64,000 nt of DNA, from the NCBI RefSeq assembly GCF_900167465.1, contig NZ_FUWR01000005.1, positions 1-64,000 on the forward strand. Direction: 5' to 3'. Below the pieces are notes generated by a model, which worked only from the letters and a program-made list of their open reading frames with translations, did not search any database and had not been told where the DNA came from. Of the stretch, positions 13,121 to 33,425 are shown in pieces. Source of the DNA: Trichlorobacter thiogenes. GTDB lineage: Bacteria > Desulfobacterota > Desulfuromonadia > Geobacterales > Pseudopelobacteraceae. The translations under genes and the position numbers were made by a program. Positions within the stretch are counted from its first letter, which is position 1. Each line of letters begins with the position of its first letter.

Positions 13121-13905
13121 TAACCAAACCTCCCGGTGATATAATCTTCTGTCTGCTGCTTCTCCGGGTTGGTGAAGATCTTCTTGGTGTCACCCATCTC
13201 AATCAGCTCCCCCAGATAAAAGAAGGCGGTTGAATCGGAAACCCGTGCTGCCTGTTGCATGTTATGGGTCACAATCACAATCGTATACTGTTCCTTCAGT
13301 TCGTCAATCAGTTCTTCAATCTTCAGCGTTGAAAGCGGGTCAAGGGCCGAACAGGGCTCGTCCATCAGGATCACTTCCGGGTTGGTGGCAATGGCACGGG
13401 CAATACAGATCCGCTGGGCCTGGCCGCCGGACAGCCCCAGGGCTGAGTCGTGCAGACGATCCTTGACTTCGTTCCAGATCGCGGCCCCTTTCAGGCTCCG
13501 CTCCACGGTCTCATCAAGGGTTGCTTTGTCGTTAATCCCGGCGATCCGCAGGCCATAGACGATATTCTCATAAATCGACTTGGGAAACGGGTTGGACTGC
13601 TGGAAGACCATCCCCACCCGCCGACGCAGCGAGATGACGTCGGTGGATCGACCAGTAATCTCATCCTTATCCAGCCGGATACTCCCTTCGATCCGCACGG
13701 AATCGATCAGGTCGTTCATCCGGTTCAGACAACGCAACAGGGTTGACTTGCCGCAGCCGGAGGGACCGATAAAGGCGGTGACCTGGTTCTTACGCATGGT
13801 CAGCGAAATATCCTTCAGGGCGTGGGAGGCACCATAGTACAGGTGTAGCTTATCCACCTCAATCAGGGGTGGGTGTTTACTCAGATCAACAGGTTCAGGA
13901 CTCAT
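13120..13905 (-). CDS. pstB: Phosphate ABC transporter ATP-binding protein
   Basis: PstB is the ATPase of the high-affinity phosphate importer. It has 261 residues, the usual size. Walker A is GPSGCGKST near residue 46, the Q-loop is in [18 protein letters not shown], the ABC signature is LSGGQAQR near 158, Walker B is [14 protein letters not shown], and the switch His is in [11 protein letters not shown]. The [10 protein letters not shown] stretch is diagnostic of PstB. It follows pstA by 21 bases. Confidence 0.97.
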
Positions 13906-13926
13906 CAGTCAGTATCCTTTGGGTGA

Positions 13927-15519
13927 TTAGAAGTGCGATGTGGTGTATCTGCGCCGCATCTGGTTACGGAAACGGATCGCCAGACTACTGGCTGCGATTA
14001 CGATCAACAGCAGCAGCAGGGTGGTGACATAGACCATCGGCTTGGCTGCCTCCACGTTGGGGGATTGGAAGCCCACGTCAAAGATATGAAAGCCCAGGTG
14101 CATAAACTTGCGGTCCATATGAAAGAACGGAAACTGGGTATCAAACGGCAGGGTCGGGGCCAGCTTGACCACCCCCACCATCATCAAGGGAGCAACTTCA
14201 CCCACGGCGCGGGCCATGGAAAGTACCAGGCCGGTCATGATCCCCGGTGTGGCCATTGGCAGCAACACCTTGGTCAGGGTCTGGAACTTGGTGGCACCCA
14301 GGGCCAGCGATCCTTCTCGGATTCCTTTGGGGATTGAGGCCAGCGACTCTTCAGTGGCCACGATCACCACCGGCACGGTCAACAGTGCCAGGGTCAGGGA
14401 TGACCAGAGGATGCCGCCGGTGCCAAAGACCGGAGTAGGCAGCCGCTCCGGGAAGAACAGTTTGTCCAGTGAACCGCCAATGCCGTAAACAAAGAAGCCC
14501 AGACCGAACACCCCATAGACAATCGATGGCACACCGGCAAGATTGTTGACCGCGATCCGCACCAGCTGCACCAGCTTGCCCTCTTTGGCGTATTCCCTTA
14601 GATAGATGGCTGCAATGACACCAAAGGGCAGCGAGAAAACCGACATCAGCAGCACCATCATCACGGTGCCGAAGATGGCTGGAAACAGACCGCCCTCGGT
14701 GTTTGATTCGCGGGGATCATCAAACAGCAGCTCGTTAATCTTGACCAGATAGGCACCAGCCTTGGCAAAAATCGACATACTGTTAGGCTGGTAAAAACGG
14801 ACAATCTCCAGCAGCGGCAGTTCCTTGTCAGCACCGGCTGCATCGCTGAAAACCGCTGTTACCTTGCCCAGTTCCGCCTGCTGTTGATTCAGTTTCTCGT
14901 TCAGCCCATCAAAGGTTGCTGTCAGCTTGGCCCGTTCTTCGTTCAGACTGTTGATGGCTGCGCTATTGGCCTCTGCGCCACGGTATTCCAGTTTCTGGAT
15001 CTTAAGCCGTAACGCCTCAGAGCTTTGGTTCAGATCAGACATCTGACCCTTGATCTGCTTCAGCCCTTTTTGCTTTTTCATGATTTCACTGTGGGCCTGC
15101 TGCAAAGCCGCAGCATCGGCGGCAACGGTACTGCCATCTGCCTTTTTCAGCTCTTTTAAAAAACCGAAGAAATTGCCATGTTCAAACCGTTCCAACAGAT
15201 AGGCATCCTTGGGGATATCCTTACTGCTGATCTCACTTTCATCCACCCATCTGAAATCCTGGCTGTACAGGTCACGGTTACCCACCTTCAACTGCAGCCG
15301 TTTGGCCTTGGTCAGGGCGTGGGATTCGGCAGCCGTCAACTGCCCCATCACGTATGAGCCGTCATTCAGCTTAAACCGCACCAGTCCCTTGACCCAGAAG
15401 TAGCCCAGGCTGTTGCCCAGGATAACGGCCATCAAGGTCAGGGTCATAAACAGGATCACTGCCAGGGTTGCCCCGGCAGTCAGCACCATTGGTTCGCCAC
15501 GTTTCCAGTAGTTTTTCAC
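13927..15519 (-). CDS. pstA: Phosphate ABC transporter permease PstA with extended periplasmic coiled coil
   Basis: PstA forms the phosphate channel with PstC in the inner membrane. It is about 530 residues, much longer than the roughly 290 of E. coli PstA. The C-terminal 260 residues are the normal permease with the EESLASIPKGIREGSLALGATKFQT coupling region (cited in part). Before it lie TM1 (about 12-33) and a 200-residue periplasmic insert with a coiled coil (about 125-215, rich in Lys, Glu, Gln and Leu). The GTG start at 15519 has an AAAGGTG site; upstream in-frame codons overlap a repeat and look non-coding. Similar long PstA proteins occur in Pseudomonas and Geobacter. Confidence 0.94.
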   Translation of the reverse strand: MKNYWKRGEPMVLTAGATLAVILFMTLTLMAVILGNSLGYFWVKGLVRFKLNDGSYVMGQLTAAESHALTKAKRLQLKVGNRDLYSQDFRWVDESEISSKDIPKDAYLLERFEHGNFFGFLKELKKADGSTVAADAAALQQAHSEIMKKQKGLKQIKGQMSDLNQSSEALRLKIQKLEYRGAEANSAAINSLNEERAKLTATFDGLNEKLNQQQAELGKVTAVFSDAAGADKELPLLEIVRFYQPNSMSIFAKAGAYLVKINELLFDDPRESNTEGGLFPAIFGTVMMVLLMSVFSLPFGVIAAIYLREYAKEGKLVQLVRIAVNNLAGVPSIVYGVFGLGFFVYGIGGSLDKLFFPERLPTPVFGTGGILWSSLTLALLTVPVVIVATEESLASIPKGIREGSLALGATKFQTLTKVLLPMATPGIMTGLVLSMARAVGEVAPLMMVGVVKLAPTLPFDTQFPFFHMDRKFMHLGFHIFDVGFQSPNVEAAKPMVYVTTLLLLLIVIAASSLAIRFRNQMRRRYTTSHF

Positions 15520-15538
15520 GTTACACCTTTGTTTTTTA

Positions 15539-15641
15539 CCGCAGAGGACGCCAAGGAACGCAGAGGGAAACAAAAAACTTTTGTAAAATCACTTTGACAA
15601 TTTTAAAGCCTTTCCTCTGCGAACCTCTGAGTCCTCTGTGG
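15539..15641. repeat. Inverted repeat between pstC and pstA (CCGCAGAGG type)
   Basis: Arms of 28 bases (15539-15566 and 15614-15641) carry CCGCAGAGGAC...CGCAGAGG and its inverted counterpart CCTCTGCG...GTCCTCTGTGG around an AT-rich loop. A single related arm occurs at 30001-30027. It lies between two genes of one operon. Confidence 0.75.
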
Positions 15642-15651
15642 TGAAATATCC

Positions 15652-17574
15652 TTAATACCTTCCGTACTTCTTACGGAACCGTTGCCGCAGCAGTTCTGCA
15701 GCGGTGTTGATGATAAAGGTCAGCACAAACAGCAGCACTGCCGAGAGAAACAGGGTCCGGTACAGCGTGCCGAACAGAGGAGCCTCAGGGATCTCCACCG
15801 CGATGTTGGCTGAAAGCGACCGCAAGCCATTGAACAGGGACCAGCTCATAATGGGCGTATTGCCGGTGGCCATCAGCACGATCATGGTCTCCCCCACCGC
15901 ACGACCAAAGCCGATCATAATGGCAGAAAAAACACCGGGCAGGGCAGAAGGCAAGATCACCCGCCAGGCGGTCTGCCAACGACTGGCGCCCAGAGCCAGT
16001 GAAGCGGCAGCCAGGTTGCGTGGCACATTAGAGAGGGCATCCTCGGCAATGGTAAAGATAATCGGGATCACGGCAAAGCCCAGGGCAATGGCAATAATGA
16101 TGCTGTTACGCTGGTCATAGCGCACCCCAAGGCTCGAGTAGAGCCACTGTTTCAGATCAGCGCCAAACAGGGTGGCCTCAAGCGGTGGGGCGATCAGACC
16201 GGATAACCAGAGTCCCAGCAGTACCACCGGCATCATGCAGATAAACTCATACCCCTTCAGTCGTCGCCCGACAGCGGTGTCTGCAACCGCCTTCCAGCTG
16301 AAGACCGCTATTAACAGCATGGCTGGCACGATTACCACCGCAAGAAACAGCATCAACAGGTTCTTGTCCATTAGCGGCGCCAACCAGAGACCGGCCAGAA
16401 AACCGATCACCACCGATGGCACTGCCGCCATGATCTCAACCGCTGGCTTAATCCGGCCTTTCAGGGTTGAAGACATGAACTGGCTGGTGTAGAGCGCCCC
16501 CAACAGCGCCAGCGGCACCGCAAACAGCATGGCAAACAGGGTGGCCTTAAAGGTACCGAAGATCAGCGGCATCAACGATATTTTAGCTTCAAAATCATCG
16601 GTGGCAGCAGAGGACTGCCAGACATACTCAGGCTTGTCATACCCTTCATACCAGACCTTGCCGAACAGGGTAGAGAACGAGACCTCCGGGTGAGGTATGG
16701 ACAGCTTCCAGACTGATACCTTGCCATCTGAGCCAGCCACCACCAGTTTTCTGCCGTTATCAGCAAAGGCAGCAGCTGCTACCCCGGAACCGGCCTTCAG
16801 TTCCAGCAGCAGGCGTTCACTGGTCATATGCAGCAGCTTGATCGTCCCAGCTGCATCAAAGGCCGCCAGAGACTTGTCGCGGGGGGAGGCTACTAACCGT
16901 TGGACCGGCTGCATGAAGCCGGGCAGATGGTGAATCAGGGTCAACTGTTTATCTTCACCGCTACCCGGTTTGCGTACCGGCATCCAGGTGGTGATCTGCC
17001 CCTTTGCATCACCCACTGCCAAAGAGGTATCTCCCAGCAGGGTGGTCAGCGCCGTAATCTTGCGGTGATCCTTAAACGCCTCCACTGTCTCCACCAGCCG
17101 CCCCTGACCTTCATCGGCCAGATCCCAGCGGACCAGCCAGCCGTTAGCCGTGGCAGCGTAGAGATTCTGCCCTTTACGTCCCAACCAGACGGCAGAGATG
17201 GCACCGGGCAGACTGTCACTCAGTTGATAGCTCTGCTGACTGACCTTTTCGTTACCCAGCAGATCTTTTTCAATCATCTTCCGCTGCACGTCAATCCGGT
17301 TATCCGGCAAAAGCCGCACTGAGATGTTGCCTTTTTCACCAAGTTCACGGGTCTGGTGTGTGCCACTAGCGTCACTTGCAACCAGGCTTTGCAGTTCAGC
17401 CGGAACATCGGCCAGTTTTTCTGCAGAAGGCGAGTAAAACAGCGGCAGGGCAACATTGGCGATCAGCAACAGAATGCCGATAACGGCAACGATAACGAAC
17501 AGACCACCAGCCTTGATCAGCCAGGCAGCCAGACGGTCATTACGGCGGGATTTATCTACAATTGAGGAGGCCAT
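15652..17574 (-). CDS. pstC: Phosphate ABC transporter permease PstC with periplasmic beta-propeller-like domain
   Basis: PstC pairs with PstA. At 640 residues it is twice the E. coli size. After TM1 (about 22-43) comes a periplasmic region of roughly 270 residues with WD40-like repeats (GQNLYAATANGWLVRWDL, DTSLAVGDAKGQITTW, DKSLAAFDAAGTIKLL, GRKLVVAGSDGKVSVWKL). The permease follows from about residue 330, with ALSNVPRNLAAASLALGAS as the EAA coupling loop. The extra propeller is known from some proteobacterial PstC proteins, but its role is unclear. The ATG lies downstream of a long palindrome that separates it from pstS. Confidence 0.94.
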   Translation of the reverse strand: MASSIVDKSRRNDRLAAWLIKAGGLFVIVAVIGILLLIANVALPLFYSPSAEKLADVPAELQSLVASDASGTHQTRELGEKGNISVRLLPDNRIDVQRKMIEKDLLGNEKVSQQSYQLSDSLPGAISAVWLGRKGQNLYAATANGWLVRWDLADEGQGRLVETVEAFKDHRKITALTTLLGDTSLAVGDAKGQITTWMPVRKPGSGEDKQLTLIHHLPGFMQPVQRLVASPRDKSLAAFDAAGTIKLLHMTSERLLLELKAGSGVAAAAFADNGRKLVVAGSDGKVSVWKLSIPHPEVSFSTLFGKVWYEGYDKPEYVWQSSAATDDFEAKISLMPLIFGTFKATLFAMLFAVPLALLGALYTSQFMSSTLKGRIKPAVEIMAAVPSVVIGFLAGLWLAPLMDKNLLMLFLAVVIVPAMLLIAVFSWKAVADTAVGRRLKGYEFICMMPVVLLGLWLSGLIAPPLEATLFGADLKQWLYSSLGVRYDQRNSIIIAIALGFAVIPIIFTIAEDALSNVPRNLAAASLALGASRWQTAWRVILPSALPGVFSAIMIGFGRAVGETMIVLMATGNTPIMSWSLFNGLRSLSANIAVEIPEAPLFGTLYRTLFLSAVLLFVLTFIINTAAELLRQRFRKKYGRY

Positions 17575-17625
17575 GGAAAATCCGGGTACTGTCTTTGTAT
17601 TTCATATACGCAAATGGAATGAAAC

Positions 17626-17741
17626 GAGGATTTTTTTGTTCTGAGTGGGGCAATCAAGGAGTGGCGAGGAGGCGTACTACTTTGTACGCCGCACAAGCCA
17701 CTCCATCGATTAACACGCTCAGGCTAGAAAAAGACCGTTTC
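17626..17741. repeat. Long palindrome between pstS and pstC (GTAC-core family)
   Basis: The centre GGCGTAC-TACTTT-GTACGCC (17671-17690) is flanked by GGAGTGGC / GCCACTCC and outer CTGAG / CTCAG and T-run / A-run ends, giving an imperfect palindrome of about 115 bp. It lies right after the pstS stop and may act as an RNA hairpin that protects the pstS transcript and limits read-through into pstC. Related elements are at 21724 and 61669. Confidence 0.75.
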
Positions 17742-18706
17742 TACTTCAGTGCTTTCAGTTGCTGCTCAACAACCTTGGCAGGCAGCGGATCATAGCCATC
17801 CTTCACCACAATCTGCTGACCTTCCTTGGAAAGGGCAAATTTCAGGAACTCTTCAGTCACCTTGGGCAGCGGCTGACCCGGCTTCTTGGCTACATAGATG
17901 TAGAGCATACGAGCCAGGGGATACTTGCCGGACAACACGTTGGCATAGTTGGCTTCATAGACGGTGCCACCTTTTTTGTCAGACAGGGGCACTGCCTTAA
18001 CACCTGAAGTGGCGTAGCCGATACCGGAGTAGCCCATGGCACTGATATCCTTGGCAACACCTTCAACAACCGAAGCGGAGCCGGGCTGCTCTTTTACGGT
18101 ACTCTTGAAGTCACCTTTATTCAGAGTGTGCTCCTTGAAGTAGCCATAGGTACCAGAGGCAGAGTTACGACCGAACAGGGAGATCGGCTTGGCTGCCAGT
18201 GAACCGCTTACACCAACCTGGCCCCAGGTAGTGATATCGGCCAGACCACGCTTGTGGGTCTTGGAGAAGATGGCATCAACCTCATCCAGAGACAGGGACT
18301 TAATCGGGTTATCCTTATTGACAAACACAGCCAGTGAATCCAGGGCCACACCGATCTTGGTCGGCTTGTAGCCGTACTTCTTCTCAAAATCTTCAATCTC
18401 TTTGCCCTTCATCTCGCGGGACATGGGACCCAGTTGAGCAGTACCGGCGATCAGGGCCGGAGGAGCAGTTGAAGAGCCTTTGCCCTCAATCTGAATGTTC
18501 ACGTTGGGATACTTCTTCTTGAACCCTTCTGCCCAGTAGGTCATCAGGTTGTTCAGGGTATCGGAACCGATACTGCCCAGGTTGCCGGATACGCCGGACG
18601 TTGCCTTATAGGTTGGCAGCTTGGCATCTACCTTCACTTTTTCTGCATGGGCCGCAGTGGCGATACAGAAGGTGGCGCACAGCGCCAGAACGCTCTTTTT
18701 CAACAT
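17741..18706 (-). CDS. pstS: Periplasmic phosphate-binding protein PstS
   Basis: PstS captures phosphate in the periplasm for PstCAB. The 321-residue length is normal. A signal peptide (MLKKSVLALCATFCIATAAHA) ends near residue 21. Ligand-contacting blocks are NLGSIGSDTLNNLMTYWAEG, EGKGSSTAPPALIAG, LGPMSREM, FGRNSASGTYGYFKEH and GYSGIGYATSGVK. A strong AGGAGG precedes the ATG. A Pho-box-like element lies about 60-90 bases upstream. It is the first gene of the pstSCAB-phoU operon. Confidence 0.97.
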   Translation of the reverse strand: MLKKSVLALCATFCIATAAHAEKVKVDAKLPTYKATSGVSGNLGSIGSDTLNNLMTYWAEGFKKKYPNVNIQIEGKGSSTAPPALIAGTAQLGPMSREMKGKEIEDFEKKYGYKPTKIGVALDSLAVFVNKDNPIKSLSLDEVDAIFSKTHKRGLADITTWGQVGVSGSLAAKPISLFGRNSASGTYGYFKEHTLNKGDFKSTVKEQPGSASVVEGVAKDISAMGYSGIGYATSGVKAVPLSDKKGGTVYEANYANVLSGKYPLARMLYIYVAKKPGQPLPKVTEEFLKFALSKEGQQIVVKDGYDPLPAKVVEQQLKALK

Positions 18707-21954: not shown

Positions 21955-22146
21955 TTAGCACTGTCCGGCCATCATCTGCCGCTGTCCACCAGCCAGCGCG
22001 ATACTTGAAGTAGGAAAACTGGTGGTGCGGTGGCAGGCGCCGCAGGCAACATCACCGTTTGCCACCCGTACCCAGAGGGTCCGGTTTTCGCTGTCACACC
22101 AGTCACAGGTCCAGGCATAGTAATCATCAAGGGTCTTTGTTCTCAT
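21955..22146 (-). CDS. Small double-CxxC zinc-ribbon-like protein
   Basis: This 63-residue protein has CDWC near residue 14 and CGAC near residue 34, spaced as in a small zinc ribbon, then a Ser/Thr-rich and Gly/Gln tail ending in Cys. The second of two close ATGs (22146) was chosen, because AGGAGG directly abuts the first (22155) and is nine bases before the second. No function is evident; such proteins often bind nucleic acid or a partner. The gene is divergent from the chemoreceptor gene and shares its upstream region. Confidence 0.7.
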   Translation of the reverse strand: MRTKTLDDYYAWTCDWCDSENRTLWVRVANGDVACGACHRTTSFPTSSIALAGGQRQMMAGQC

Positions 22147-22305
22147 CGCAGTCATCCTCCTGCCTCGTTCATTGGCATCCTTTTTTTGTTTGTCAGACCA
22201 TACCGTTTAAACATGACGTTTGGGTGTCGGGATTCCAAAGAGTCTGCAACAACGGCCAGAAGCCTGAAAACGGCCATCGGGCATGCCACAGACATTTTTC
22301 TCTAT

Positions 22306-22347
22306 TGTCACAGGGCTGTAACAGCGGCCTGTTACTGTCCTGTTTCA
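22306..22347 (+). promoter_or_regulatory. Putative double Pho box upstream of the chemoreceptor operon
   Basis: TGTCACA (22306) and TGTAACA (22317) are 11 bp apart. TGTTACT (22330) and TGTTTCA (22341) are again 11 bp apart. This resembles two adjacent PhoB sites and matches the elements before pstS, phoB and DUF47-pit. The start codon is at 22374; only the first pair leaves room for a -10 element. Confidence 0.55.
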
Positions 22348-22373
22348 CGCATCAAAAGGGAGGAAAACACGCC

Positions 22374-24605
22374 ATGACCATTCGCCTGAAACTGCTGATC
22401 AACAGCCTGATTACCTTTGCCGGTTTTGCTGCTGTTGTGCTGCTGGGCTACTACACCATCGCCGGATTTCAGACCAACATACGGGAGCTGACCACCCGCT
22501 CCACCCCACTGCAGGTCAAGATGCTGCAGTTCCAGCAGACCGTGGAACGGCTCTCCGGTGATCTGCTGCAAACCGGCATGCTGGAAGATCCCCAAGAGCT
22601 GCAGAAGCAGACCGCTGTGATGGAAGAGCGCCGTAAAAGGCTTGATCAACTGAATAAAGAGATACAGGAGCTGAAGGGGGTACAACTGGATGTGTCTGCC
22701 TTTGCAACCCTTGAACAGCAGGTGGCTGCGGCGTTGCGCGACAAGTTCGCCAGTCTGGAGATATTTAAGGCAGAGGCTACCAATCTGAGCGGTTCCATTA
22801 AGGCTGCTGAAAAATCACTTGAAGGGATTCGTGACGTTATCTCAGGACTGCGCAGCACGGCAGCACGGCGTGCCTCAGCCTATTCAAAAGATATTGACCG
22901 CGCCCTGAAAGGTGAAACCGTAACCGGTCTGAACGATACCGCGACCCTGCAGGACAAGATTCAGAACTATCGTAATGGTGTTGAAAACGACATGGAGATC
23001 AACAAGCGGGTCATGACTGCAGTTGAAGCAGTGGACAGCATTCATATTGACCTGCGCCTGCTGGATGCCAAGGCCCGGATGGTAATGCTCAGCAGCTCTG
23101 CAGCGGAGCTGGACAGACTGGTGGCAGAGATCAATGGTGTTCAAGCAAGAATCAGTAAGCATTTAAAGCAGGCAGAAACAGAAGTCATGTCAGTCAAAAG
23201 CGGTGGCGTGGTCAAGGATGCCATTGAGCAGATCGGCAACGGCACAGGACGGGCAGGCGCTGCAATCAGGCGGATCACCACGGCCCAGCGCAATGTGCTG
23301 GCCAGCATGGGGCAGGTTGAGGCAACTGTAGCCAAAGTCAGACAGGTAACCATGGAGCAGGCACGCCAGAGTGAGGCCCAGGTCTCAGCCACCACCAGCG
23401 AGCAGCATACGTTTGTTGAGGAGATGACCAGCACCTCACGCAAACGGACTGGAATCATGCTGGGTGGTGCGCTGACAATCGGCATACTGGTACTGACCCT
23501 TAACTGGCTGGTGGCCAGAATTATCCGCAAGCCCCTTGCTCTGCTGCAAACAACTATCGGCGAGATTGCAGAAAGTCGTGACCTGCGCCGCAGTATTGAG
23601 GTCCAGAACCACGATGAAATCGGTCAGTCCATCAATGCCTTTAACCGCTTGATCAGCTCATTCAGACGTATTGTAGGCACCATAGCCGGAACCGCCGGAA
23701 CCCTGGCCAACACCTCACAGGAACTTTCAGGCACGGTAAGCCTGATCACCTGCCAGGTACAGGAACAGAGTGAACGGGTCAGCCAGGTTGCCACGGCAGG
23801 CAGTGAGTTGTACCAGACCGTGGCAGATGTCGCGCAGCACACGGCACGGATTGCTGATTCAGCCGGAATGGCCCGACAGACCGCTCAGGACGGTGCCAAG
23901 GTGGTGAACCGAACCATTGCAGAGGTACAGGCCATAGCCGATTCGGTGGGGGAGTCACAAACTACCATTGCCAGCCTGCATGGGCGATCTCAACAGATCG
24001 GTGAGATCCTTGCAACCATCCGTGACATTGCCGACCAGACCGGCCTGCTGGCGCTGAATGCCGCCATTGAAGCGGCCCGGGCCGGCGAACACGGACTTGG
24101 CTTTACCGTGGTGGCCAATGAGGTACGCAACCTCTCCCGTCGTGCCGAGGAAGCCACAGCTGAAATCGCCGAAAAGCTCACCGCTATCCAGAGTGACACC
24201 AGCAGGGCCGTTGAGACCATGCAGCAGAGCCTGACACAGGTTAATCAAGGTATTCGCTACTCTGAAAAGGCGGGCTTTGCCCTTGCCAGTATTGTTGAAA
24301 GCGTTGACGGTCTGCAGGGGATGACCCAGCAGATCGCCACTGCAACGGAAGAGCTGTCTGCCACCTCCAGCCAGATCAGCGATGACATCCTTGCCATTGA
24401 CAGCTCACTGCGGCAGACCCTGCAGGCCACCGGTGCCATCTCGGAAGAATCAATCCGGCTGGCAGCCATCTCACAGGAACTACAGGCCGAGCTGAATCAG
24501 TTTCAGTATGACGAACCACCGGTTTTAACCACCGAACCGTCACCGCAGCAGCGCTACCAGCCGCCTGTTTTTAACATGCTGAACAACCTCCCTGCAGCAG
24601 CGTAG
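22374..24605 (+). CDS. Methyl-accepting chemotaxis protein
   Basis: This 743-residue membrane receptor has TM1 at about residues 8-30, a long helical sensory region (about 31-355) and TM2 near 360-383. A HAMP domain (about 385-440) and a signalling domain follow, with the conserved hairpin tip ADQTGLLALNAAIEAARAGE (20 residues) and FTVVANEVRNLSRR. It transmits ligand state to CheA/CheW; the ligand is not known. The start has GGGAGG 9-10 bases upstream. It is the first of three plus-strand genes (gaps 47 and 27 bases). The double Pho-box-like element upstream and a PstS-like domain two genes downstream hint at phosphate-related sensing; this is inference. Confidence 0.93.
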   Translation: MTIRLKLLINSLITFAGFAAVVLLGYYTIAGFQTNIRELTTRSTPLQVKMLQFQQTVERLSGDLLQTGMLEDPQELQKQTAVMEERRKRLDQLNKEIQELKGVQLDVSAFATLEQQVAAALRDKFASLEIFKAEATNLSGSIKAAEKSLEGIRDVISGLRSTAARRASAYSKDIDRALKGETVTGLNDTATLQDKIQNYRNGVENDMEINKRVMTAVEAVDSIHIDLRLLDAKARMVMLSSSAAELDRLVAEINGVQARISKHLKQAETEVMSVKSGGVVKDAIEQIGNGTGRAGAAIRRITTAQRNVLASMGQVEATVAKVRQVTMEQARQSEAQVSATTSEQHTFVEEMTSTSRKRTGIMLGGALTIGILVLTLNWLVARIIRKPLALLQTTIGEIAESRDLRRSIEVQNHDEIGQSINAFNRLISSFRRIVGTIAGTAGTLANTSQELSGTVSLITCQVQEQSERVSQVATAGSELYQTVADVAQHTARIADSAGMARQTAQDGAKVVNRTIAEVQAIADSVGESQTTIASLHGRSQQIGEILATIRDIADQTGLLALNAAIEAARAGEHGLGFTVVANEVRNLSRRAEEATAEIAEKLTAIQSDTSRAVETMQQSLTQVNQGIRYSEKAGFALASIVESVDGLQGMTQQIATATEELSATSSQISDDILAIDSSLRQTLQATGAISEESIRLAAISQELQAELNQFQYDEPPVLTTEPSPQQRYQPPVFNMLNNLPAAA

Positions 24606-24652
24606 CCGCAACTGAACGTTGTCCGTCAACCTTGCTCACAGAGGAACCACCT

Positions 24653-27600
24653 ATGCATAGCGTTACGCAGCACCAGATAGCAGGCAGGTTGTGGTCTTCA
24701 GAGAAAACCACACAACAGGCAGATATACCGGGACGACAGGAAAAGATCCTGTTGTTCGGCATACCGATTGCGCTGACAGCCCGCAACACAACCATCGCAT
24801 TTCTACTGTTCGGCTGCGCCTGGACCGTTGCAGCCGGGCTGCTTGAACAGCAGTTCAGCCTGTCAACCCTGCCGCATATTGCTACCGGTATCGGCCTGCT
24901 TATCATCACCGCCATATCGCTCTATCTTCTGATCCGCCGCTTTACCAAAAACAACGCCTCATCCCATGAGCTGATCATCAGGGCCTTTCATGCCTCCCCT
25001 AACGGTATTGCGGTGGTGCGGGATCATGACCGCCAGATCCTGCTGGTAAACCAGCGCTTTGCCGGTATGACCGGCTATACGGTTGCTACCATTGTTGGCC
25101 GTAGCGACAGCGACCTTAACCTTTGGGAGAACAGCGCAGAACGGCTGGATCTGATCCGCCAGATCCGTGACAACGGTGTTGTGCAGGGGCTTGAGGTCAC
25201 CCTGCGGAAACAGGATGGGACACTGCTGAACGGCGCGGTTTCTGCCCACCGGATTCTGTTTGAAGGAGATTCCTGCACCATCATTTTTCTGGAAGATACC
25301 ACCCTGCTGAAACAGGCGGCCCGCAAGGTGGAAGAGTTGACCCGCTATGACGCCATCACCGGGCTGCCCAACCAGAAACTGCTCAATGACCGGCTTAGTC
25401 AGCTGCTGGCCATCAGCAACCGTGATGAACAGGCGCTGTCCGTGCTGAAACTTGCCCTGGGGCGTTGTCCCGGCGCCATTAGTGCCCGGGCCAATGATGA
25501 TTGCGATGAGCTGCTGCGCTGTGTGGCAGACCGCCTGCAGGGTGTTTTGCGCGAAACCGACAGTCTGGCAGTGCTGCAAAAGGGTGAATTTGGCATCCTG
25601 CTGCCAAAGACCGAGAGTGAACGGGATATTTTACCGGTCATCACCAAACTGCTTGATGCCCTCAATGAACCGATCAACCTGCATGACGCAGAGTTCCAAC
25701 TGAACGTCCATATCGGTATCGCCATCTTTCCCAATGATGGCCGCACCGGTGAGGTGTTGTTGCAGCATGCCCATCTGGCACTGGCCCAGGCACAGGCCAA
25801 GTCAATTGGTGGGGAATGCGGCTTCAAGTTTTATTCAGAGGAGATGAACCAGGCGGTCAGTGAGCAGATGCAGATAGAGTCAAGCATCCTGCGGGGGATT
25901 CGGGCCGGGGAATTTTTTGCCTGTTATCAGCCACTGTTCAGCCAGGATGGTAAAAAACTGGTCGGTATGGAGGCGTTGGCCCGCTGGCAGCACCCCACCC
26001 TGGGGCTGGTGGGGCCGGATAAGTTTATTCCGGTGGCCGAGGATAACGGTGCCATCGTGCAGCTGGGGGACCGAATGCTGGAGCTGGCCCTGCAAAACTG
26101 CAAAGAGTGGCGGGAACAGGGCTATCCCCATCTGACCGTGGCGGTTAATGTCTCGACCCGTCAGCTGAAGGATCGCCAGTTTGCCGAGCGGGTCGCCCGT
26201 CAACTGCAGATGGTGGGGCTGCCACCTGATGCACTCTGCTGCGAACTGACCGAATCGCTGTTGATGGAACATTCCAATGAAAATACCGAGCAGATCTTCA
26301 GGCTGAAGGAGCTGGGGGTTAAACTGGCCATTGATGACTTTGGCACCGGCTACTCATCCCTGACCTACCTGAAACATCTGCCGGTGGACCGCCTTAAGAT
26401 TGACCGCTCCTTTGTGAAGGAGCTGGACAGCAACCCTGATGACCGGGCGATTGTGGTTGCCATCATCGCCATGGCCCGCTCACTGCACCTCAAGGTTACT
26501 GCAGAAGGGGTAGAAACCGCCCATCAGCACCAACTGTTGCAGGAGCTGGGCTGCGACACCATGCAGGGCTACTACTTTGGCAAACCGATGCCACGGGAAA
26601 CCTTTGAAGATTTTTTACAGGCAGGCACGCCACTGCTTGTTGGTGATCCAACCGACGTGAGTGCAGATCAGACAACACAGGAATTGCATCCCTGCCCTCC
26701 CCTGGCGGCTGCACCGGAAGAAGTTGATCGCTCACTGCAGACCGTTGCAGATATCACCCTGCATATCGAGCCCCTCAGACCGGCAGACCGCCTGAACACC
26801 GCCCTGGAACGGTTTCAGACCGATAAACGGTTGCAGGTACTGCCGGTGGTGGACCAGCACCGGGTAGCCGGGGTACTGAACCGCTCCGAGTTCATTGAAG
26901 AACAGATTGTGGGGCGGATCGGCTACGCCTTTCATATCAACCATTCCAAAAAAGTGCGTGATCTGATGCAGCCGGTACCGCTGGTGATTGATGCTGAAGC
27001 CAGCATTGAAGAGGCGGCCCAGGCACTGCACGGCAACTTTGGCAGCATGCGGCTGGAGAACATCTGCGTTGCCAAACGTGGCGTCTATCGAGGCATTCTG
27101 GACGTCCGCACCCTGGTGGAGGCGATCACCGCCCTGAACCTGAAGCTGGCCAAGGGGGCCAACCCGCTGACCGGTCTGCCGGGTAACGAGAGTATCCAGC
27201 GGGAAACCACCCGACGGCTGGAATCAGGCATGCCGTTTGACATCGCCTATATCGATATTGACCACTTCAAGCCGTACAACGACTTTTACGGTTTTGAACG
27301 GGGCGACATGGTGATTCAGGTGGTGGGAGATATCTTGAAACAGTACGCCGATGACCTGCTGCAGGATCGACCGTCCAGAAACTTCTGCGGTCATATCGGC
27401 GGCGATGACTTCATCATCATCACCGGTCCCGGCCATGCCGTGGCCCTGTCACGGCAAATGATTGCGGAATTTGATGCCCGGCTACCCCTGCTGCATGGCG
27501 CAAGTGACTATGCCAAAGGTTGCTACACCTCTTTTAACCGCAAAGGAGAACTGGAGACCTTTAACCTGCTGTCCCTTTCTGTAGCGGCAATCAGCACCGC

Positions 27601-27751
27601 CAACCTAAAGATCGGTTCCTACGCGCAACTGGCCTCCATGGCCAGCGAGGTCAAAAAAACCGCTAAAAAAGTCAAAGGATCATCGGTGGTAATCAAAGAC
27701 AACAATGAAGCCCCCCGTGTGATGCTTGGAGCATTGTCAGCAGAATCGTAA
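24653..27751 (+). CDS. Membrane PAS-GGDEF-EAL-CBS-GGDEF cyclic-di-GMP protein
   Basis: This 1032-residue protein has two TM segments (about 38-62 and 68-90) and a PAS domain (about 105-215). A degenerate GGDEF (KGEF in LQKGEFGILLP) follows. The EAL domain (about 405-650) keeps MEALARW and IDDFGTGYSSL and so may hydrolyse c-di-GMP. Next come a region like a pair of CBS domains (about 685-835), then a second GGDEF with intact GGDDF in HIGGDDFIII. The second GGDEF lacks a clear RxxD inhibitory site. It could therefore both make and break c-di-GMP. The ATG has AGAGGA upstream. It lies between the chemoreceptor and the pseudokinase genes, probably cotranscribed. Confidence 0.92.
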   Translation: MHSVTQHQIAGRLWSSEKTTQQADIPGRQEKILLFGIPIALTARNTTIAFLLFGCAWTVAAGLLEQQFSLSTLPHIATGIGLLIITAISLYLLIRRFTKNNASSHELIIRAFHASPNGIAVVRDHDRQILLVNQRFAGMTGYTVATIVGRSDSDLNLWENSAERLDLIRQIRDNGVVQGLEVTLRKQDGTLLNGAVSAHRILFEGDSCTIIFLEDTTLLKQAARKVEELTRYDAITGLPNQKLLNDRLSQLLAISNRDEQALSVLKLALGRCPGAISARANDDCDELLRCVADRLQGVLRETDSLAVLQKGEFGILLPKTESERDILPVITKLLDALNEPINLHDAEFQLNVHIGIAIFPNDGRTGEVLLQHAHLALAQAQAKSIGGECGFKFYSEEMNQAVSEQMQIESSILRGIRAGEFFACYQPLFSQDGKKLVGMEALARWQHPTLGLVGPDKFIPVAEDNGAIVQLGDRMLELALQNCKEWREQGYPHLTVAVNVSTRQLKDRQFAERVARQLQMVGLPPDALCCELTESLLMEHSNENTEQIFRLKELGVKLAIDDFGTGYSSLTYLKHLPVDRLKIDRSFVKELDSNPDDRAIVVAIIAMARSLHLKVTAEGVETAHQHQLLQELGCDTMQGYYFGKPMPRETFEDFLQAGTPLLVGDPTDVSADQTTQELHPCPPLAAAPEEVDRSLQTVADITLHIEPLRPADRLNTALERFQTDKRLQVLPVVDQHRVAGVLNRSEFIEEQIVGRIGYAFHINHSKKVRDLMQPVPLVIDAEASIEEAAQALHGNFGSMRLENICVAKRGVYRGILDVRTLVEAITALNLKLAKGANPLTGLPGNESIQRETTRRLESGMPFDIAYIDIDHFKPYNDFYGFERGDMVIQVVGDILKQYADDLLQDRPSRNFCGHIGGDDFIIITGPGHAVALSRQMIAEFDARLPLLHGASDYAKGCYTSFNRKGELETFNLLSLSVAAISTANLKIGSYAQLASMASEVKKTAKKVKGSSVVIKDNNEAPRVMLGALSAES

Positions 27752-27778: not shown

Positions 27779-29983
27779 ATGCAAAAGGGAGAAATGCTGT
27801 ACCACTATCGTATTGAAGGACCGGCCCCCTACGGCAAAGGGGCCCTGTTATCAGCCGAGCATGTTCTGCTGGGCAAACGCTTCCTGCTTAAATCGCTGAC
27901 CAGCAGGCAACCCGGCACCGAATCCTATCGGGAACGCTTTTACAACGAAGCCAAGCTGCTGGCCGGCATGGTGCATCCCAATATCCTCCAGGCCACTGAC
28001 TTTTTTGAGCACAATGGTGGATTCTGGCTGGTGATGGAGTATTACAACGGCGCGGCCCTGGACCGGATGATTGAGCATAACGGCCCTTTCCCCCAACATT
28101 TTGCCCTGCATTTTACCATACGGCTGTTGCAAGGGCTCAGATTTGCCCATGAAAAAGGGATCGTCCACCGTGGTCTGTGTACCTCAATTATTCTGGTTGA
28201 CCGTAACGGCGGACTGAAGATCTCCGATTTTGGCGTAGCTCTGCTGAAGTATGGTGAAGACCTGCAAGAGGTGGGACAAGGGGGCGATGCCGCTTTTATG
28301 AGCCCGGAGCAGATTTTAAACCCCTTTACCGTTACCCCCCAGAGCGATATCTATGCCGTCGGGATGATTCTCTACAACATGCTGGCCGGCAGTCTGCCGT
28401 TTCAGGAAGAATCTGCGGTTGACACCCTGCTGAACCAATTTGACCGCACCATTCCTGACATCAGGGAGTTTGCGCAGGATACCCATGAAGAACTGGCGTT
28501 GATTCTCCACAAGGCCCTGGAAAAAGATCCGGCTAACCGCTACCAGAGCAGCCTTGAATTCCTGAATGCGTTGGAAAGACACCGGATCGCCATGCTGCCC
28601 AGCACCCCTGCCAACGGCATTGCCGATTCATGGTTCAAACGTCGCCGTGGCCTGGTGATGTCATCACTGGTGGGAGCCCTGTTGCTGGCCAGTAGTGGCG
28701 GCTACTACTACAACTGGATCAACTCCTACGACATCATCCTGAAACTGCAGGGATCAAACACCATCGGTGCAGAACTGGCCCCCTCGCTGGCTGAAGAGTT
28801 TCTGAAAAAGAACGGGGCGGTCCGCACCCGGCGGGTGCCGGGCAAGAATCATGAAGAGCTGCTGGTGGAAGGGATCATGGAAGGGCGTCGCAACCGGGCG
28901 GTGGAGATCAAGGCCCATGGCTCCACCACCGCCTTTGAGGGGTTACTGGCCAATGCCTGCGATATCGGCATGTCCTCCCGCAGGGTCAAGGATGACGAAA
29001 CAAAGAAGCTATCACTGCTGGGAACTATGACCTCCCGCGCAAACGAGCATATTCTGGCCCTGGACGGGGTGGCGGTAATCGTTAACAGCGCAAACCCGGT
29101 TTCCCGGCTTTCACTGGACGACACCCAGTCGCTCTTTACCGGTAAGACCCCTGACTGGAAGGGATTGACCGGCATTGCCAAGGCTGCACCGGTCCATCTC
29201 TACGCCCGTGATGACAAATCAGGCACCTTCGACACCTTCAAAAGCCTGGTACTGCACAAGCAAGAGCTTACCAAGGCGGCAAAACGGTTTGAAGACAGCG
29301 TTAAGCTCTCACGAGAGGTATCCACAGATCCCAACGGAATCGGCTTTATCGGCCTGCCCTATGTCAAGTCATCCAAGGCGGTGGCCATCAGCAGCGGCGG
29401 CCAACCGATCCTGCCCACCGCCTTCACCGTTGCCACCGAGGACTACAGTCTTGCACGGCGCCTCTACCTCTACACGCCGGGGCAGCCAAAGAATCCCAAG
29501 ATCAGGGACTTTGTCGAGTTTGCCCTCTCGCCGGAAGGCCAGGCCATTGTCGAAAAGACCGGATTCGTGCCGCTCAACGTACGGATCGGCAACTCATACA
29601 TCCCCACCAACGCGCCGGAGCGCTACCGCCAGCTGGCCAGCGGTTCAGATCGGCTCTCAATCACCTTTAAATTTGCAGCAGACGGCCAGCTTGATAACAA
29701 GGCCTACCGCGATCTTGACCGTCTGGTGCGGGCGATGTCGGCAAAAGAGCTGCAAGGACGGCAACTGCTGCTGTTCGGCTTCACCGATGATGCCGGTGAT
29801 ACCAACACCAGCCTGGCGCTTTCCAATCAGCGGGTGGGACAGGTAGCCCAGGAACTGCGCTCCCGAGGCATTATGGTTGCCGCTGCAGAAGGGTTCGGCT
29901 CCAGCCTGCCGATGGCCGACAACAGCACCAAAGAGGGCAAACAGCGCAATAACCGGGTAGAAATCTGGCTGGCAAAACGATAA
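27779..29983 (+). CDS. Transmembrane pseudokinase-PstS-like-OmpA fusion
   Basis: This 734-residue protein joins three modules. Residues 1-270 are a Ser/Thr kinase fold with K38, E57, SDFG (149-152) and MSPEQ (174-178). The catalytic loop reads HRGLCTSIIL (130-139) instead of HRDLKPxNIL, so the catalytic Asp, Lys and Asn are missing: it looks like a pseudokinase. A single TM segment spans about 291-309. Residues 320-600 resemble a PstS-type substrate-binding protein (LQGSNTIGAEL, AHGSTTAFEGLL, IGMSSRRV, DDKSGTFDTFKSL, DPNGIGFIGLPYV). Residues 625-734 are an OmpA-like peptidoglycan-binding domain (LFGFTDDAGD, NRVEIWL). The likely topology is pseudokinase inside, the rest in the periplasm. It closes the chemoreceptor operon. 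Confidence 0.9.
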   Translation: MQKGEMLYHYRIEGPAPYGKGALLSAEHVLLGKRFLLKSLTSRQPGTESYRERFYNEAKLLAGMVHPNILQATDFFEHNGGFWLVMEYYNGAALDRMIEHNGPFPQHFALHFTIRLLQGLRFAHEKGIVHRGLCTSIILVDRNGGLKISDFGVALLKYGEDLQEVGQGGDAAFMSPEQILNPFTVTPQSDIYAVGMILYNMLAGSLPFQEESAVDTLLNQFDRTIPDIREFAQDTHEELALILHKALEKDPANRYQSSLEFLNALERHRIAMLPSTPANGIADSWFKRRRGLVMSSLVGALLLASSGGYYYNWINSYDIILKLQGSNTIGAELAPSLAEEFLKKNGAVRTRRVPGKNHEELLVEGIMEGRRNRAVEIKAHGSTTAFEGLLANACDIGMSSRRVKDDETKKLSLLGTMTSRANEHILALDGVAVIVNSANPVSRLSLDDTQSLFTGKTPDWKGLTGIAKAAPVHLYARDDKSGTFDTFKSLVLHKQELTKAAKRFEDSVKLSREVSTDPNGIGFIGLPYVKSSKAVAISSGGQPILPTAFTVATEDYSLARRLYLYTPGQPKNPKIRDFVEFALSPEGQAIVEKTGFVPLNVRIGNSYIPTNAPERYRQLASGSDRLSITFKFAADGQLDNKAYRDLDRLVRAMSAKELQGRQLLLFGFTDDAGDTNTSLALSNQRVGQVAQELRSRGIMVAAAEGFGSSLPMADNSTKEGKQRNNRVEIWLAKR

Positions 29984-30072: not shown

Positions 30073-30235
30073 CCTGATGAGCACTGAGATGTAGAATGCC
30101 CCTTCTCCATGAGGGAGAAGGTGGCCGAAGGCCGGATGAGGGGGACAGCAGCGGCTTGATGTGACCCTTTTCCCCCTCACCCTGACCCTCTCCCTCAAGG
30201 GCGAGGGGATTTTCTGAAGATTGGTGCTCATCAGG
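30073..30235. repeat. 163-bp nested palindromic element
   Basis: Perfect 12-bp ends CCTGATGAGCAC (30073-30084) and GTGCTCATCAGG (30224-30235) enclose a second, imperfect inverted repeat. Its halves contain CCCCTTCTCC...GGGAGAAGG and the inverse of CCCTCGCCC...GGGAGAGGG. The structure is MITE-like, but no transposase is nearby and no target duplication was recognised. The remaining 29984-30365 gap otherwise holds only a solo repeat arm and a small GC-rich hairpin near 30247-30275. Confidence 0.7.
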
Positions 30236-30365
30236 TTTAATTTTCTCCGCGAGCCCCACGGCTCCGCGTGAGTATCTGCTTTTTCTGGATAACTGCTACT
30301 GGAACCAATCCGCTAAACGGTGTACTGTTGCCATGACACACCACCAGCAGGAAAGGGAAACAGCC

Positions 30366-30833
30366 ATGCCGTCATACAACATCATCGAAATGGGATCACG
30401 CAAGCGGATCGCCCTGGTGGCCCACGACCATAAGAAACGGGATCTGATTGAATGGGCCCGCTTTAACCGGGCCATATTGGTGGAGCATGACCTGTACGCC
30501 ACCGGCACCACCGGCGCACTGCTCTGTGAGCAGTTAGACCTGCAGGTAACCCGGCTGCAGAGCGGCCCGCTGGGTGGCGATCAGCAGATCGGCGCCATGA
30601 TCGCCCAGGGGGAGATTGATTTTGTGATCTTTTTCTGGGATCCGCTGGAACCACAGCCCCATGACCCGGATGTCAAGGCGCTCTTGAGGATAGCCGTTGT
30701 CTGGAACATTCCGGTGGCCTGCAACCGCGCCACCGCTGATTTCATGATCTCGTCATCCCTGATGCATGACCCCTACGACCGGATGATGCAGGATTATGAA
30801 GCGTATAAACAACGCTTAAAGAATGTGGCCTGA
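30366..30833 (+). CDS. mgsA: Methylglyoxal synthase
   Basis: MgsA converts dihydroxyacetone phosphate to methylglyoxal and phosphate, a bypass of lower glycolysis that is favoured when phosphate is scarce. The 155-residue protein has IALVAHDHKKRDLIEW, LYATGTTGALL, SGPLGGDQQIGAMIA (with the catalytic Asp), FWDPLEPQPHDPDVKALLRI (20 residues) and the NIPVACNRATADFM block. The ATG at 30366 has AGGAAAGGGA upstream. An FRG-domain gene starts five bases after its stop. In E. coli the enzyme is inhibited by phosphate, which fits the local theme but is not proof. Confidence 0.95.
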   Translation: MPSYNIIEMGSRKRIALVAHDHKKRDLIEWARFNRAILVEHDLYATGTTGALLCEQLDLQVTRLQSGPLGGDQQIGAMIAQGEIDFVIFFWDPLEPQPHDPDVKALLRIAVVWNIPVACNRATADFMISSSLMHDPYDRMMQDYEAYKQRLKNVA

Positions 30834-30838
30834 CTCCC

Positions 30839-31624
30839 ATGATTGAAACTATTACCGTCCACTCCTGGGATGAACTCCAGCAGGCACTGTTTGCCGATTC
30901 ATGGAACGAAGAGCTGGGCCGCTACCGTTCCCGCTTTGCCTTTCGGGGCCTGTCCGATGTTGATTACCGCCTTGAAACCACCCTGATGCGGTTGGGCGGC
31001 CAATACGCCGATCTGGAACACCACCTGATGCGTAATTTCAAAAAATATGCCCATCAGCGGGTGGTTGAACGTGACTCCATCTGGCACTGGCTGTCGGTGG
31101 CGCAGCACTACGGCCTGCCCACCCGCTTGCTGGACTGGACCTATTCACCATTTATTGCCATGCACTTTGCCACGGCCAATATTGAAAAGAGTGATCTTGA
31201 TGGAGTGGTCTGGGCAGTCAACTACGTCAAGGCGCACCAGCTATTACCCGACGTATTACGTCACAAACTTGAGCAGGAAGGGGCCAATGTACTCACGGTA
31301 GAGATGTTATCTGAAGTGATTACATCGTTGCCTGAACTGGATGCCATTACCCAGGATGATGTTGCCGTATTTTTTGAACCACCCTCCATAGATGACCGGA
31401 TCGTCAACCAGTTTGCCTTCTGCTCAGTCATGACCTCACCCGGTATGGCGCTGGACAGCTGGTTGGAACAACATCCCGACACCGGTCGCAAGATCATCAT
31501 ACCAGCTGCTTTAAAGTGGGAAATCCGCGACAAGCTGGACCAAGCCAACGTGACGGAACGGGTACTGTTTCCAGGGCTTGATGGTCTGAGCCGCTGGCTT
31601 AAGCGGCACTATAGTCCGCGATGA
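30839..31624 (+). CDS. FRG domain-containing protein
   Basis: This 261-residue cytoplasmic protein is named for its FRG motif: FAFRGLSDVDYRLETTLMR near residue 30. The family YGLPTRLLDWTYSPFIAMHFA block (about residues 95-115, cited as YGLPTRLLDWTYSP) is also present. The second half is less conserved. FRG proteins have no firmly assigned activity; some occur in phage-defence and toxin contexts. There is no good ribosome-binding site, but the start is five bases after the mgsA stop, so translational coupling is likely. A HigBA module lies 112 bases beyond on the other strand. Confidence 0.85.
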   Translation: MIETITVHSWDELQQALFADSWNEELGRYRSRFAFRGLSDVDYRLETTLMRLGGQYADLEHHLMRNFKKYAHQRVVERDSIWHWLSVAQHYGLPTRLLDWTYSPFIAMHFATANIEKSDLDGVVWAVNYVKAHQLLPDVLRHKLEQEGANVLTVEMLSEVITSLPELDAITQDDVAVFFEPPSIDDRIVNQFAFCSVMTSPGMALDSWLEQHPDTGRKIIIPAALKWEIRDKLDQANVTERVLFPGLDGLSRWLKRHYSPR

Positions 31625-32474: not shown

Positions 32475-33425
32475 TCAGACACTTCGAATCATCTTCAGCA
32501 TATCAGACGAAAGTCTGTTTTTGCTGCAGTACTGATCCTCAAGATCTTCTATATAAAACAGATCCAGCCCTGATTTTTCGATAAAATCCTGCCGCAGGGC
32601 GGCATTGCCGCGCACCACTTGCGGCAGGATGGCGTTGGAATAGATCGCCTCCAGCTTGACCAGTTCAAAGGCCTTCTGAAACAGCGCATCCGGTATATCA
32701 CCCTCCACCCCGTGGCGTTGGCGCAGCTCAATGGTGGTAACCCGCCGGATTACCTCCTGTCCTTGCGGGGTACTCATGGCAGCCTGATTCAACTTGGACT
32801 GTTCGGCAACAATTTCAGCCAGCAGCATGAAGAGCCGTTCTTCCTTTTCCAGCTGCTGCAGCCGGTAGATAATCCCCTGCACCGCCTGCAGATCAAAAAA
32901 CTTCATATCATTTTTCTGGGTCTGTACCGTCTGAATCCTGGCCAGACCATCCACCAGCAGCTTGACCCTGCGCCGTCCGTAGCTGTCCAGTAGCTGGCTC
33001 TTGAGCAGGTCATCCACCATCAAGCGGGCAAAAAGCCCGCCATCAATTGACTCGAACCACTCCATATCATGCTTCAGCTCCACCAACAGCTCCAGATCAA
33101 GCTGGGAGCTGCCCATAAAAGCCAGATGGTTCAGGTGGCCGGTGGCCAGTTCCAACCTCTGGAAGTAGTCGGTCAGCAGGGTAAAGCGCTTTTTAAGCGC
33201 CAATGGGGCACCGTCCCGGATCTGCTCATCCAGTTGTTTACCCAGCTCAAACAGCAGCCCGTCAAAGGACTGGTCACCGGCTGCCAGGGCTCGTTTCCGC
33301 GCACACAAAAGCTGCATCACCTGTAGCCGGGACAGACCGGTTGAACCCGGCCCGTCCAGCAGCACCAGCTGCTTCAACAGTTCCTGCGCCTCTTCAGGGG
33401 AAAGCTGATTGGGGTGGTGTATCAT
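32475..33425 (-). CDS. Mostly helical protein of unknown function
   Basis: This 316-residue protein has no signal peptide or membrane segment. It is predicted largely alpha-helical: QLSPEEAQELLKQLVLLDGPGSTG near the start (cited in part), long Leu/Glu-rich helices, then FELVKLEAIYSNAILPQVV and a short tail FYIEDLEDQYCSKNRLS. I do not recognise a family. The ATG has a GAGG site. It is 57 bases downstream of the DUF2062 gene on the same strand and might be the last gene of that cluster. Codon use is ordinary for the region. Confidence 0.7.
   Translation of the reverse strand: MIHHPNQLSPEEAQELLKQLVLLDGPGSTGLSRLQVMQLLCARKRALAAGDQSFDGLLFELGKQLDEQIRDGAPLALKKRFTLLTDYFQRLELATGHLNHLAFMGSSQLDLELLVELKHDMEWFESIDGGLFARLMVDDLLKSQLLDSYGRRRVKLLVDGLARIQTVQTQKNDMKFFDLQAVQGIIYRLQQLEKEERLFMLLAEIVAEQSKLNQAAMSTPQGQEVIRRVTTIELRQRHGVEGDIPDALFQKAFELVKLEAIYSNAILPQVVRGNAALRQDFIEKSGLDLFYIEDLEDQYCSKNRLSSDMLKMIRSV

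Follow-up and report, generated by a model that had tools for sequence, protein, structure and literature searches.

Kinases of the PASTA type, such as PknB and StkP, place a kinase domain inside the cell, a single span in the membrane, and wall-related domains outside. For proteins with the kinase fold that have lost catalytic motifs, the available part of a 2025 review (PMC12599244) names the families ActPs1-3, GLW, CP1, DYD, and DLHK together with individual cases, and it groups such pseudokinases into those with all three motifs degraded and those with divergent ATP and metal motifs. In this work, we analyzed a 64,000-nucleotide stretch of Trichlorobacter thiogenes DNA (NCBI RefSeq assembly GCF_900167465.1, contig NZ_FUWR01000005.1, positions 1 to 64,000; hereafter the window), which carries a gene for a 734-residue protein in which a kinase fold without the catalytic Asp is followed by one predicted membrane span, a PstS-like binding domain, and an OmpA-type domain. 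We give about even weight to the interpretation that this protein, hereafter the receptor, combines a PstS-like sensor and an OmpA anchor with a cytosolic dead kinase, and that ligand alters its binding to a partner. The authors of a preliminary description of the same DNA knew of no described system with this architecture, and our literature search on the receptor, on pseudokinases, and on the associated system likewise found none among the matches listed; neither OmpA nor PstS was found in the available part of the review (PMC12599244).

Domain layout and topology

Each third of the receptor was recognized by profile searches. The Pkinase, PBP_like_2 (PF12849; residues 372-586, E 5.1e-24, 85.9 bits against a cut-off of 27), and OmpA (OmpA_C, PF00691; residues 636-724, E 2.6e-11, 44.2 bits against a cut-off of 27.2) matches all exceeded the curated Pfam cut-offs, and the PDB searches returned kinases and phosphate-binding proteins. 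Only one stretch had a 19-residue hydropathy above 1.3; it begins at residues 291-292, directly after the motif KRRR. The layout proposed in the preliminary description (a kinase fold, one transmembrane segment, a PstS-type domain, and an OmpA domain) was thus confirmed. Membrane proteins follow the positive-inside rule, and because KRRR lies ahead of the lone hydrophobic stretch, the kinase part should be cytosolic and the remainder, with the PstS-like and OmpA parts, periplasmic. The open reading frame (ORF) starts with ATG 27 bp past the upstream stop codon, with AGGAG just 5' of the start, and the closest named relative, from a Trichlorobacter metagenome-assembled genome (MAG), is 98 percent identical across residues 1-568.

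A conserved kinase fold without the catalytic aspartate

The family search covered 97 relatives and was then carried to 141 genomes of the order. Nine genomes have the full architecture; besides the window's own, they supply six sequences of Trichlorobacter type and two from genus g6 that are more distant (L011, L012). L005 and L006 of these members are near-copies, L006 sits in a MAG of g6, and L007 and L009 are truncated where their contigs end. The contig with L006 (G057:C49, L006/L044, 5763 bases) is nearly identical to the Trichlorobacter locus of G005 and was probably binned wrongly, a transfer being less likely. A contig scan with patterns taken from the window protein alone reached only close relatives, and no relatives were found in the viral contigs scanned.

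All nine members carry HRG in place of HRD, with Gly at the position of the catalytic Asp, and its presence in nine members from nine genomes indicates that it is neither chance nor a sequencing error. The HRG of the receptor aligns without gaps with the HRD of the solved kinases 9ymt and 4eqm. Our kinase alignment comprised 38 non-redundant rows, namely the 9 family members, 28 controls (the other kinases of the fetched loci whose sequence spans the loop), and 1 row that was dropped since its loop was uncovered; the catalytic Asp, Lys, and Asn and the DFG motif are all kept in 28/28 controls. The two other kinase-family genes among the three in the window genome also retain the catalytic Asp (HRD, HQD).

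The remaining motifs are lost unevenly. Listed in the order P0001, L005 to L012, the catalytic-loop Lys position (134) reads C, T, T, C, N, N, K, S, and S, and the Asn position (137) is I in P0001 and L005-L009 and N in L010, L011, and L012. DFG is present in seven members and replaced by GFG in two, while Lys38 and Glu57 are present in all nine. In the nucleotide loop, the first two Gly are replaced in every member (the second by Tyr or Phe) and the third is kept; among the controls, each of the 19 rows in which all three positions are covered has the first two, and the other 9 rows cover these positions partly or not at all, one of them with Leu at the second position. The P+1 Thr has become D, E, or A in 9/9 members, compared with T in 26 and S in 2 of the 28 controls. 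The window protein has no Ser or Thr in the segment from DFG to SPE; such residues do occur there in three of the nine members. Members and controls alike have an invariant [SA]PE motif, F-helix Asp, and C-lobe Arg, and with these kept, the kinase fold seems to be maintained.

These comparisons strongly support reading the domain as a pseudokinase, a class defined by a kinase fold in which the VAIK Lys, the HRD Asp, or the DFG Asp has been lost. The individual residues named in the preliminary description (K38, E57, and DFG 150-152 kept; H130-R131-G132, C134, and I137 in the catalytic loop) were all recovered, and its pseudokinase reading held in the survey of homologues for HRG versus HRD as well as under the selection analysis described below. 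That description did not mention the loss of two loop Gly, the loss of the P+1 Thr, the lack of Ser/Thr between DFG and SPE, or the sharing of the sensor half with other cytosolic heads. No member retains the catalytic Asp or the P+1 Thr, whereas the loss of Lys, Asn, and DFG varies among members; the loss may thus have been stepwise, the latter three apparently having gone later. The aromatic residue in the Gly loop suggests weak or no nucleotide binding, and the role of the kept Lys-Glu pair may be to stabilize the fold and not to hold ATP.

A different use of the fold would be another reaction, for example glutamylation or the transfer of AMP, or nucleotide binding as a switch. The invariant K38 and E57 and the DFG in 7/9 members, including those of Trichlorobacter, would suit such a function, and the available part of PMC12599244 gives SelO and SidJ as examples of pseudokinases whose activities are of another kind. 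However, the first two loop Gly are replaced throughout, and Tyr or Phe at the second may crowd the ATP site; two members have GFG; and one active site would be expected, yet positions 134 (C/T/N/K/S) and 137 (I/N) vary. We consider this explanation unlikely.

The ratio of nonsynonymous to synonymous substitution rates (dN/dS, Nei-Gojobori) was 0.057-0.196 over the kinase part in five pairs and similar over the PstS part (0.060-0.223), these ratios being rough as the synonymous rate is near saturation in several pairs. The values for the kinase part point to purifying selection, so the domain is not a relic, and a relic gene was rejected on this basis. Decay of a former kinase without present use could be read from the absence of the gene in one sister genome and from the drift of active-site positions among members, but the dN/dS values, the lack of in-frame stops in the members found, and the fixed structural motifs leave it only a minimal probability.

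The sensor half and its alternative heads

Among the solved structures related to the middle third, most are phosphate-binding proteins by name, with 4q8r, 4gd5, 4pqj, and 4omb ranking first. T328, S382, S400-R401, R477, and S481-T483 are positions that we take, from E. coli PstS, to be ligand contacts. The residues at these positions (with G482 between S481 and T483) are invariant in all seven full-length members aligned, two partial ones being excluded, and the same residues are invariant in 12/12 aligned PstS-OmpA modules with any head. All of them except T328 match 4q8r, 4gd5, and the window genome's own PstS; T328 was not covered or not placed in these alignments. The ligand idea of the preliminary description hinged on such PstS contact residues, and their presence supports a putative role of the domain as a phosphate or oxyanion receptor. 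In the OmpA domain, D670 and R685 lie 15 residues apart, which is presumably the spacing used for diaminopimelate/peptidoglycan binding.

The sensor half is not confined to the pseudokinase. A profile search for the PstS-OmpA module in 277 genomes of the class (E up to 1e-60) found it in 17, of which 9 have the pseudokinase and 8 do not. Seven of these eight proteins (L082-L088) were labelled Roadblock/LC7-like; six of them entered the head alignment, and L087 was unscanned and labelled by likeness. The Pfam Robl_LC7 model matched 5/6 separate heads at E up to 0.1 (best 3.3e-5), and the only two PDB matches of the head profile at E up to 10 were both Roadblock proteins (E 0.35 and 0.39). The eighth protein (L089) has a head of unclear kind and lies with the Roadblock-like rows on the tree. 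A phylum sample of 395 genomes (E up to 1e-50) gave matches in 11, the window's own among them; four have the full module with other heads, and six have the PstS part only. Three of the four heads are short, Cys-rich, and in our reading zinc-ribbon-like, with no convincing Pfam match. The fourth (L111/L122, G602) contains a receiver-like domain below the cut-off, whose usual phospho-acceptor Asp looks replaced in our reading of the motif DLILCSQ, and a DUF4388 domain above the cut-off. A separate DUF4388 gene adjoins the receptor gene in L082 and L086, so that fusion and adjacency agree.

In the unrooted tree of the sensor half, the pseudokinase, Roadblock-like, and zinc-ribbon-like rows each fall on one side of a branch, with moderate supports of 90/97, 87/95, and 86/80, respectively, none at the program's starred level; L089 was left uncounted, and the program warned of long branches meeting in the zinc-ribbon group. 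The grouping is stated for the unrooted tree because the window PstS as outgroup, with an end branch of 9, gave no useful root. None of these heads would be expected to be catalytic, which argues for signalling by recruitment, and from these swapped, non-enzymatic-looking heads we infer that the receptor probably signals by recruitment or docking and not by phosphorylation.

The zinc-ribbon-like relatives adjoin genes of Tubulin_2 (FtsZl1) in L120, L121, and L123, which indicates a possible link between the PstS-OmpA receptor family and a tubulin-like system. Tubulin_2 was present in those 3 of the 12 genomes searched and absent from the window genome (G000) and the 8 others. This pattern bears on whether the receptor is a structural tether that links the inner membrane, the wall, and a cytosolic assembly, with the PstS-like part as a spacer or as a grip on a fixed wall ligand. 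Transmembrane pseudokinase scaffolds do exist, such as EssB/YukC for secretion (PMC12599244, available part), and the system whose Tubulin_2 genes stand beside the zinc-ribbon-like relatives was proposed to remodel membranes with OmpA proteins (PMC2875224, available part). Nevertheless, ligand positions invariant in 12/12 modules go beyond the expected need of a spacer, and the window genome has no Tubulin_2, as stated above. We therefore assign the tether a low, though not trivial, probability.

Gene neighbourhood and co-occurrence

The features of the receptor gene and its surroundings are collected in Table 1.

Table 1 Receptor features and neighbouring genes, in window positions
Feature	Positions	Strand	Evidence or remark
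Receptor gene (pseudokinase, transmembrane span, PstS-like, OmpA), 734 aa	27779..29983	+	ORF
Protein-kinase fold, residues 27-256	27857..28546	+	Pfam PF00069 (Pkinase), E 3.3e-38
Degenerate nucleotide (Gly) loop, residues 14-21	27818..27841	+	A16 and Y18 at the first two Gly positions, G21 kept
K38 (VAIK Lys) to E57 (alpha-C Glu)	27890..27949	+	both kept 9/9
Catalytic loop, H130-R-G-L-C-T-S-I137	28166..28189	+	catalytic Asp, Lys, and Asn lost
DFG, residues 150-152	28226..28234	+	present in window protein
Single predicted membrane span, residues 291-309	28649..28705	+	hydropathy; KRRR ahead
PstS-like binding domain, residues ~319-599	28733..29575	+	T328, S382, S400, R401, R477, S481, T483
OmpA-type peptidoglycan-binding domain, residues 636-724	29684..29950	+	D670, R685
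PAS-GGDEF-EAL-CBS-GGDEF cyclic-di-GMP protein	24632..27751	+	27 bp upstream of receptor gene
Methyl-accepting chemotaxis protein	22059..24605	+	upstream, codirectional; ORF limits
mgsA, methylglyoxal synthase	30333..30833	+	downstream
FRG-domain protein	30839..31624	+	
Short TIGR04442 protein	32475..33425	-	match confined to 319-607 in a model of 608 positions (C-terminal half)
pst operon (PhoU, PstB, PstA, PstC, PstS)	12452..18706	-	NCBIfam

Of the further Trichlorobacter-type loci, six extend far enough upstream and all of these have the GGDEF/EAL gene there (44 percent identity in G008); five extend far enough downstream, and all of these have mgsA. Methylglyoxal synthase is inhibited and controlled by phosphate. 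The gap between the receptor gene and mgsA contains a GC-rich, inverted-repeat-like stretch (30090-30215, by eye) with one partial second match of 38 bases elsewhere in the window genome; the gap is shorter in other genomes.

The pst-phoU genes are about 9 kb from the receptor gene in the window and in G005 and about 17 kb away in G008. This proximity, together with the identity of most pocket positions to those of the operon PstS, would also suit an additional PstS, held at the wall, that gathers phosphate for PstCAB, the kinase fold being merely a membrane-side docking part. However, the pst operon already encodes a conventional PstS, a single-span anchored protein could presumably serve few transporters, the sensor half bears unrelated cytosolic heads elsewhere, and no pst genes were found in the 20 kb fetched around the G044 and G052 copies, all of which make this explanation improbable. 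PstC (640 aa) and PstA (548 aa) of the operon (window 13927-17574) have long N-terminal extensions relative to models of 296 and 272 positions.

Short TIGR04442 copies occur in 9 of the 141 genomes (G000, G005, G007, G008, G009, G011, G014, G044, and G052); split full-length genes (G024, G081, G111, and G140) and a 96-position sub-cut-off match in G032 were excluded from this count. The pseudokinase also has nine carriers, and eight genomes carry both. The TIGR04442 carrier without the pseudokinase is G011, and the pseudokinase carrier without TIGR04442 is G057, where the gene is on a 5.8 kb contig. Fisher's test gave p 2.5e-11 across the 141 genomes and 0.004 within genus g6 (39 genomes), and neither value takes relatedness into account. 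The receptor and short TIGR04442 genes adjoin each other directly, on one strand, in G044 and G052.

The sister genome G011 offers a useful natural control, in which the receptor gene alone is absent and both neighbours are kept. In L090 (G011:C120), one DNA match to the window, 744 bases at 96 percent, ends at window position 27744, and the next, 692 bases at 89 percent, begins at 30312; in G011 itself, the two are about 60 bases apart. As more distant species carry the receptor gene at the same place, loss in G011 is the simpler reading.

Proposed mechanism and opposing observations

We propose that the receptor would be a single-span inner-membrane protein whose periplasmic PstS-like domain binds phosphate or a similar oxyanion and whose OmpA domain ties it to peptidoglycan, giving a fixed point, with a cytosolic kinase fold devoid of phosphotransfer chemistry. 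Ligand binding, read against the wall anchor, would alter the cytosolic domain in its state or its pairing and so make it bind or release a partner. The most likely partner is the short TIGR04442 protein, and another possibility is the cyclic-di-GMP enzyme encoded by the adjacent gene. More tentatively, and with somewhat less confidence than we place in the receptor itself, we speculate that the relatives form a family, as yet unnamed, of receptors that are anchored to the wall and bind phosphate or an oxyanion, in which one conserved sensor half is combined with exchangeable, non-enzymatic-looking heads that signal by recruiting partners, such as short TIGR04442 in Trichlorobacter and perhaps FtsZl1 filaments in distant relatives.

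Several observations weigh against the proposed receptor. Regarding the ligand, the PstS-like domain scores below the TIGR02136 cut-off (170.7 vs 206.6), which the operon PstS passes (273.1), and PhoB-box-like sites in the window numbered 4, with 6.8 expected by chance; the phosphate or oxyanion receptor of the preliminary description is favoured by the invariant PstS-type positions and, in Trichlorobacter, by the nearby pst-phoU genes, and disfavoured by the family cut-off. Regarding the anchor, L011 and L012 of g6 carry Trp at the expected peptidoglycan-contact Arg, and the OmpA score of L011 (27.1) is just below the cut-off of 27.2, so that the wall anchor of that description fits Trichlorobacter and fits the g6 members less well. 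The membrane span is of modest hydropathy (peak 1.41), and structure prediction of the kinase part from the single sequence reached a mean pLDDT of 35 and was not used. The Roadblock/LC7 assignment of the alternative heads is weak: whole-protein scans hit Robl_LC7 in 4/6, all below the cut-off (L085 and L089 gave no hit), and the profile of these heads showed no significant similarity to that of a neighbouring Roadblock protein (probability 4 percent). GGDEF/EAL, mgsA, and pst genes were not found in the 20 kb fetched around the G044 and G052 copies. Finally, the sister genome G011 lacks the receptor gene, and its short TIGR04442, GGDEF/EAL, and mgsA genes stay. On the whole, the observation made in the preliminary description was confirmed, and its interpretation was partly supported.

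The presumed input, the anchor, and the dead kinase are present in one chain, and a candidate partner gene, a natural absence, and alternative heads are at hand, so that input and output are directly testable. If the proposed receptor acts in this way, it would bear on how phosphate supply might be coupled to the envelope without a two-component relay.

Comparison with known systems

In MviN, the pseudokinase domain is fused to a many-span protein, whereas in the receptor it is fused instead to a sensor and a wall anchor. As far as the available part of PMC12599244 describes it, MviN (ActPs3, mycobacteria) resembles the receptor as a transmembrane protein with a Hanks-type pseudokinase domain, a tie to peptidoglycan synthesis, and a non-catalytic role, but it lacks the VAIK Lys and DFG (VALT, Y--). 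EssB/YukC is likewise a membrane protein with a cytosolic pseudokinase as scaffold; however, all three motifs of EssB are degraded (LDMR, Ytfvlapd, TRG), it belongs to type VII secretion, and the same part of the review mentions no PstS or OmpA part for EssB/YukC (PMC12599244). GLW pseudokinases have GLW for HRD and have lost the VAIK Lys, unlike the receptor with its HRG and K38, and CP1 proteins have variable motifs, no membrane spans, and a constant link to a COG3899 domain, so the receptor does not fit CP1 (PMC12599244, available part). Compared with both groupings of that review, as given in the same part, the receptor keeps the Lys, the Glu, and mostly the DFG, yet loses the catalytic Asp.

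The OmpA-domain proteins associated with FtsZl1 (Makarova and Koonin 2010, PMC2875224) are related through the zinc-ribbon-like relatives that adjoin Tubulin_2, a gene that the window genome does not have; in the available text of that paper, the word "phosphate" was not found. The PASTA-type kinases StkP, PknA, and PknB are among the best PDB matches of the receptor kinase, but such kinases have an active HRD and PASTA domains, whereas the receptor lacks the catalytic Asp and scores 191.3 bits against the PASTA kinase model NF033483, whose cut-off is 450. PstS-2 (TIGR02136) differs in that the receptor lies below the family cut-off, is membrane-tied, is fused on both sides, and is encoded outside the pst operon, but the two have in common the same domain and most of the pocket positions.

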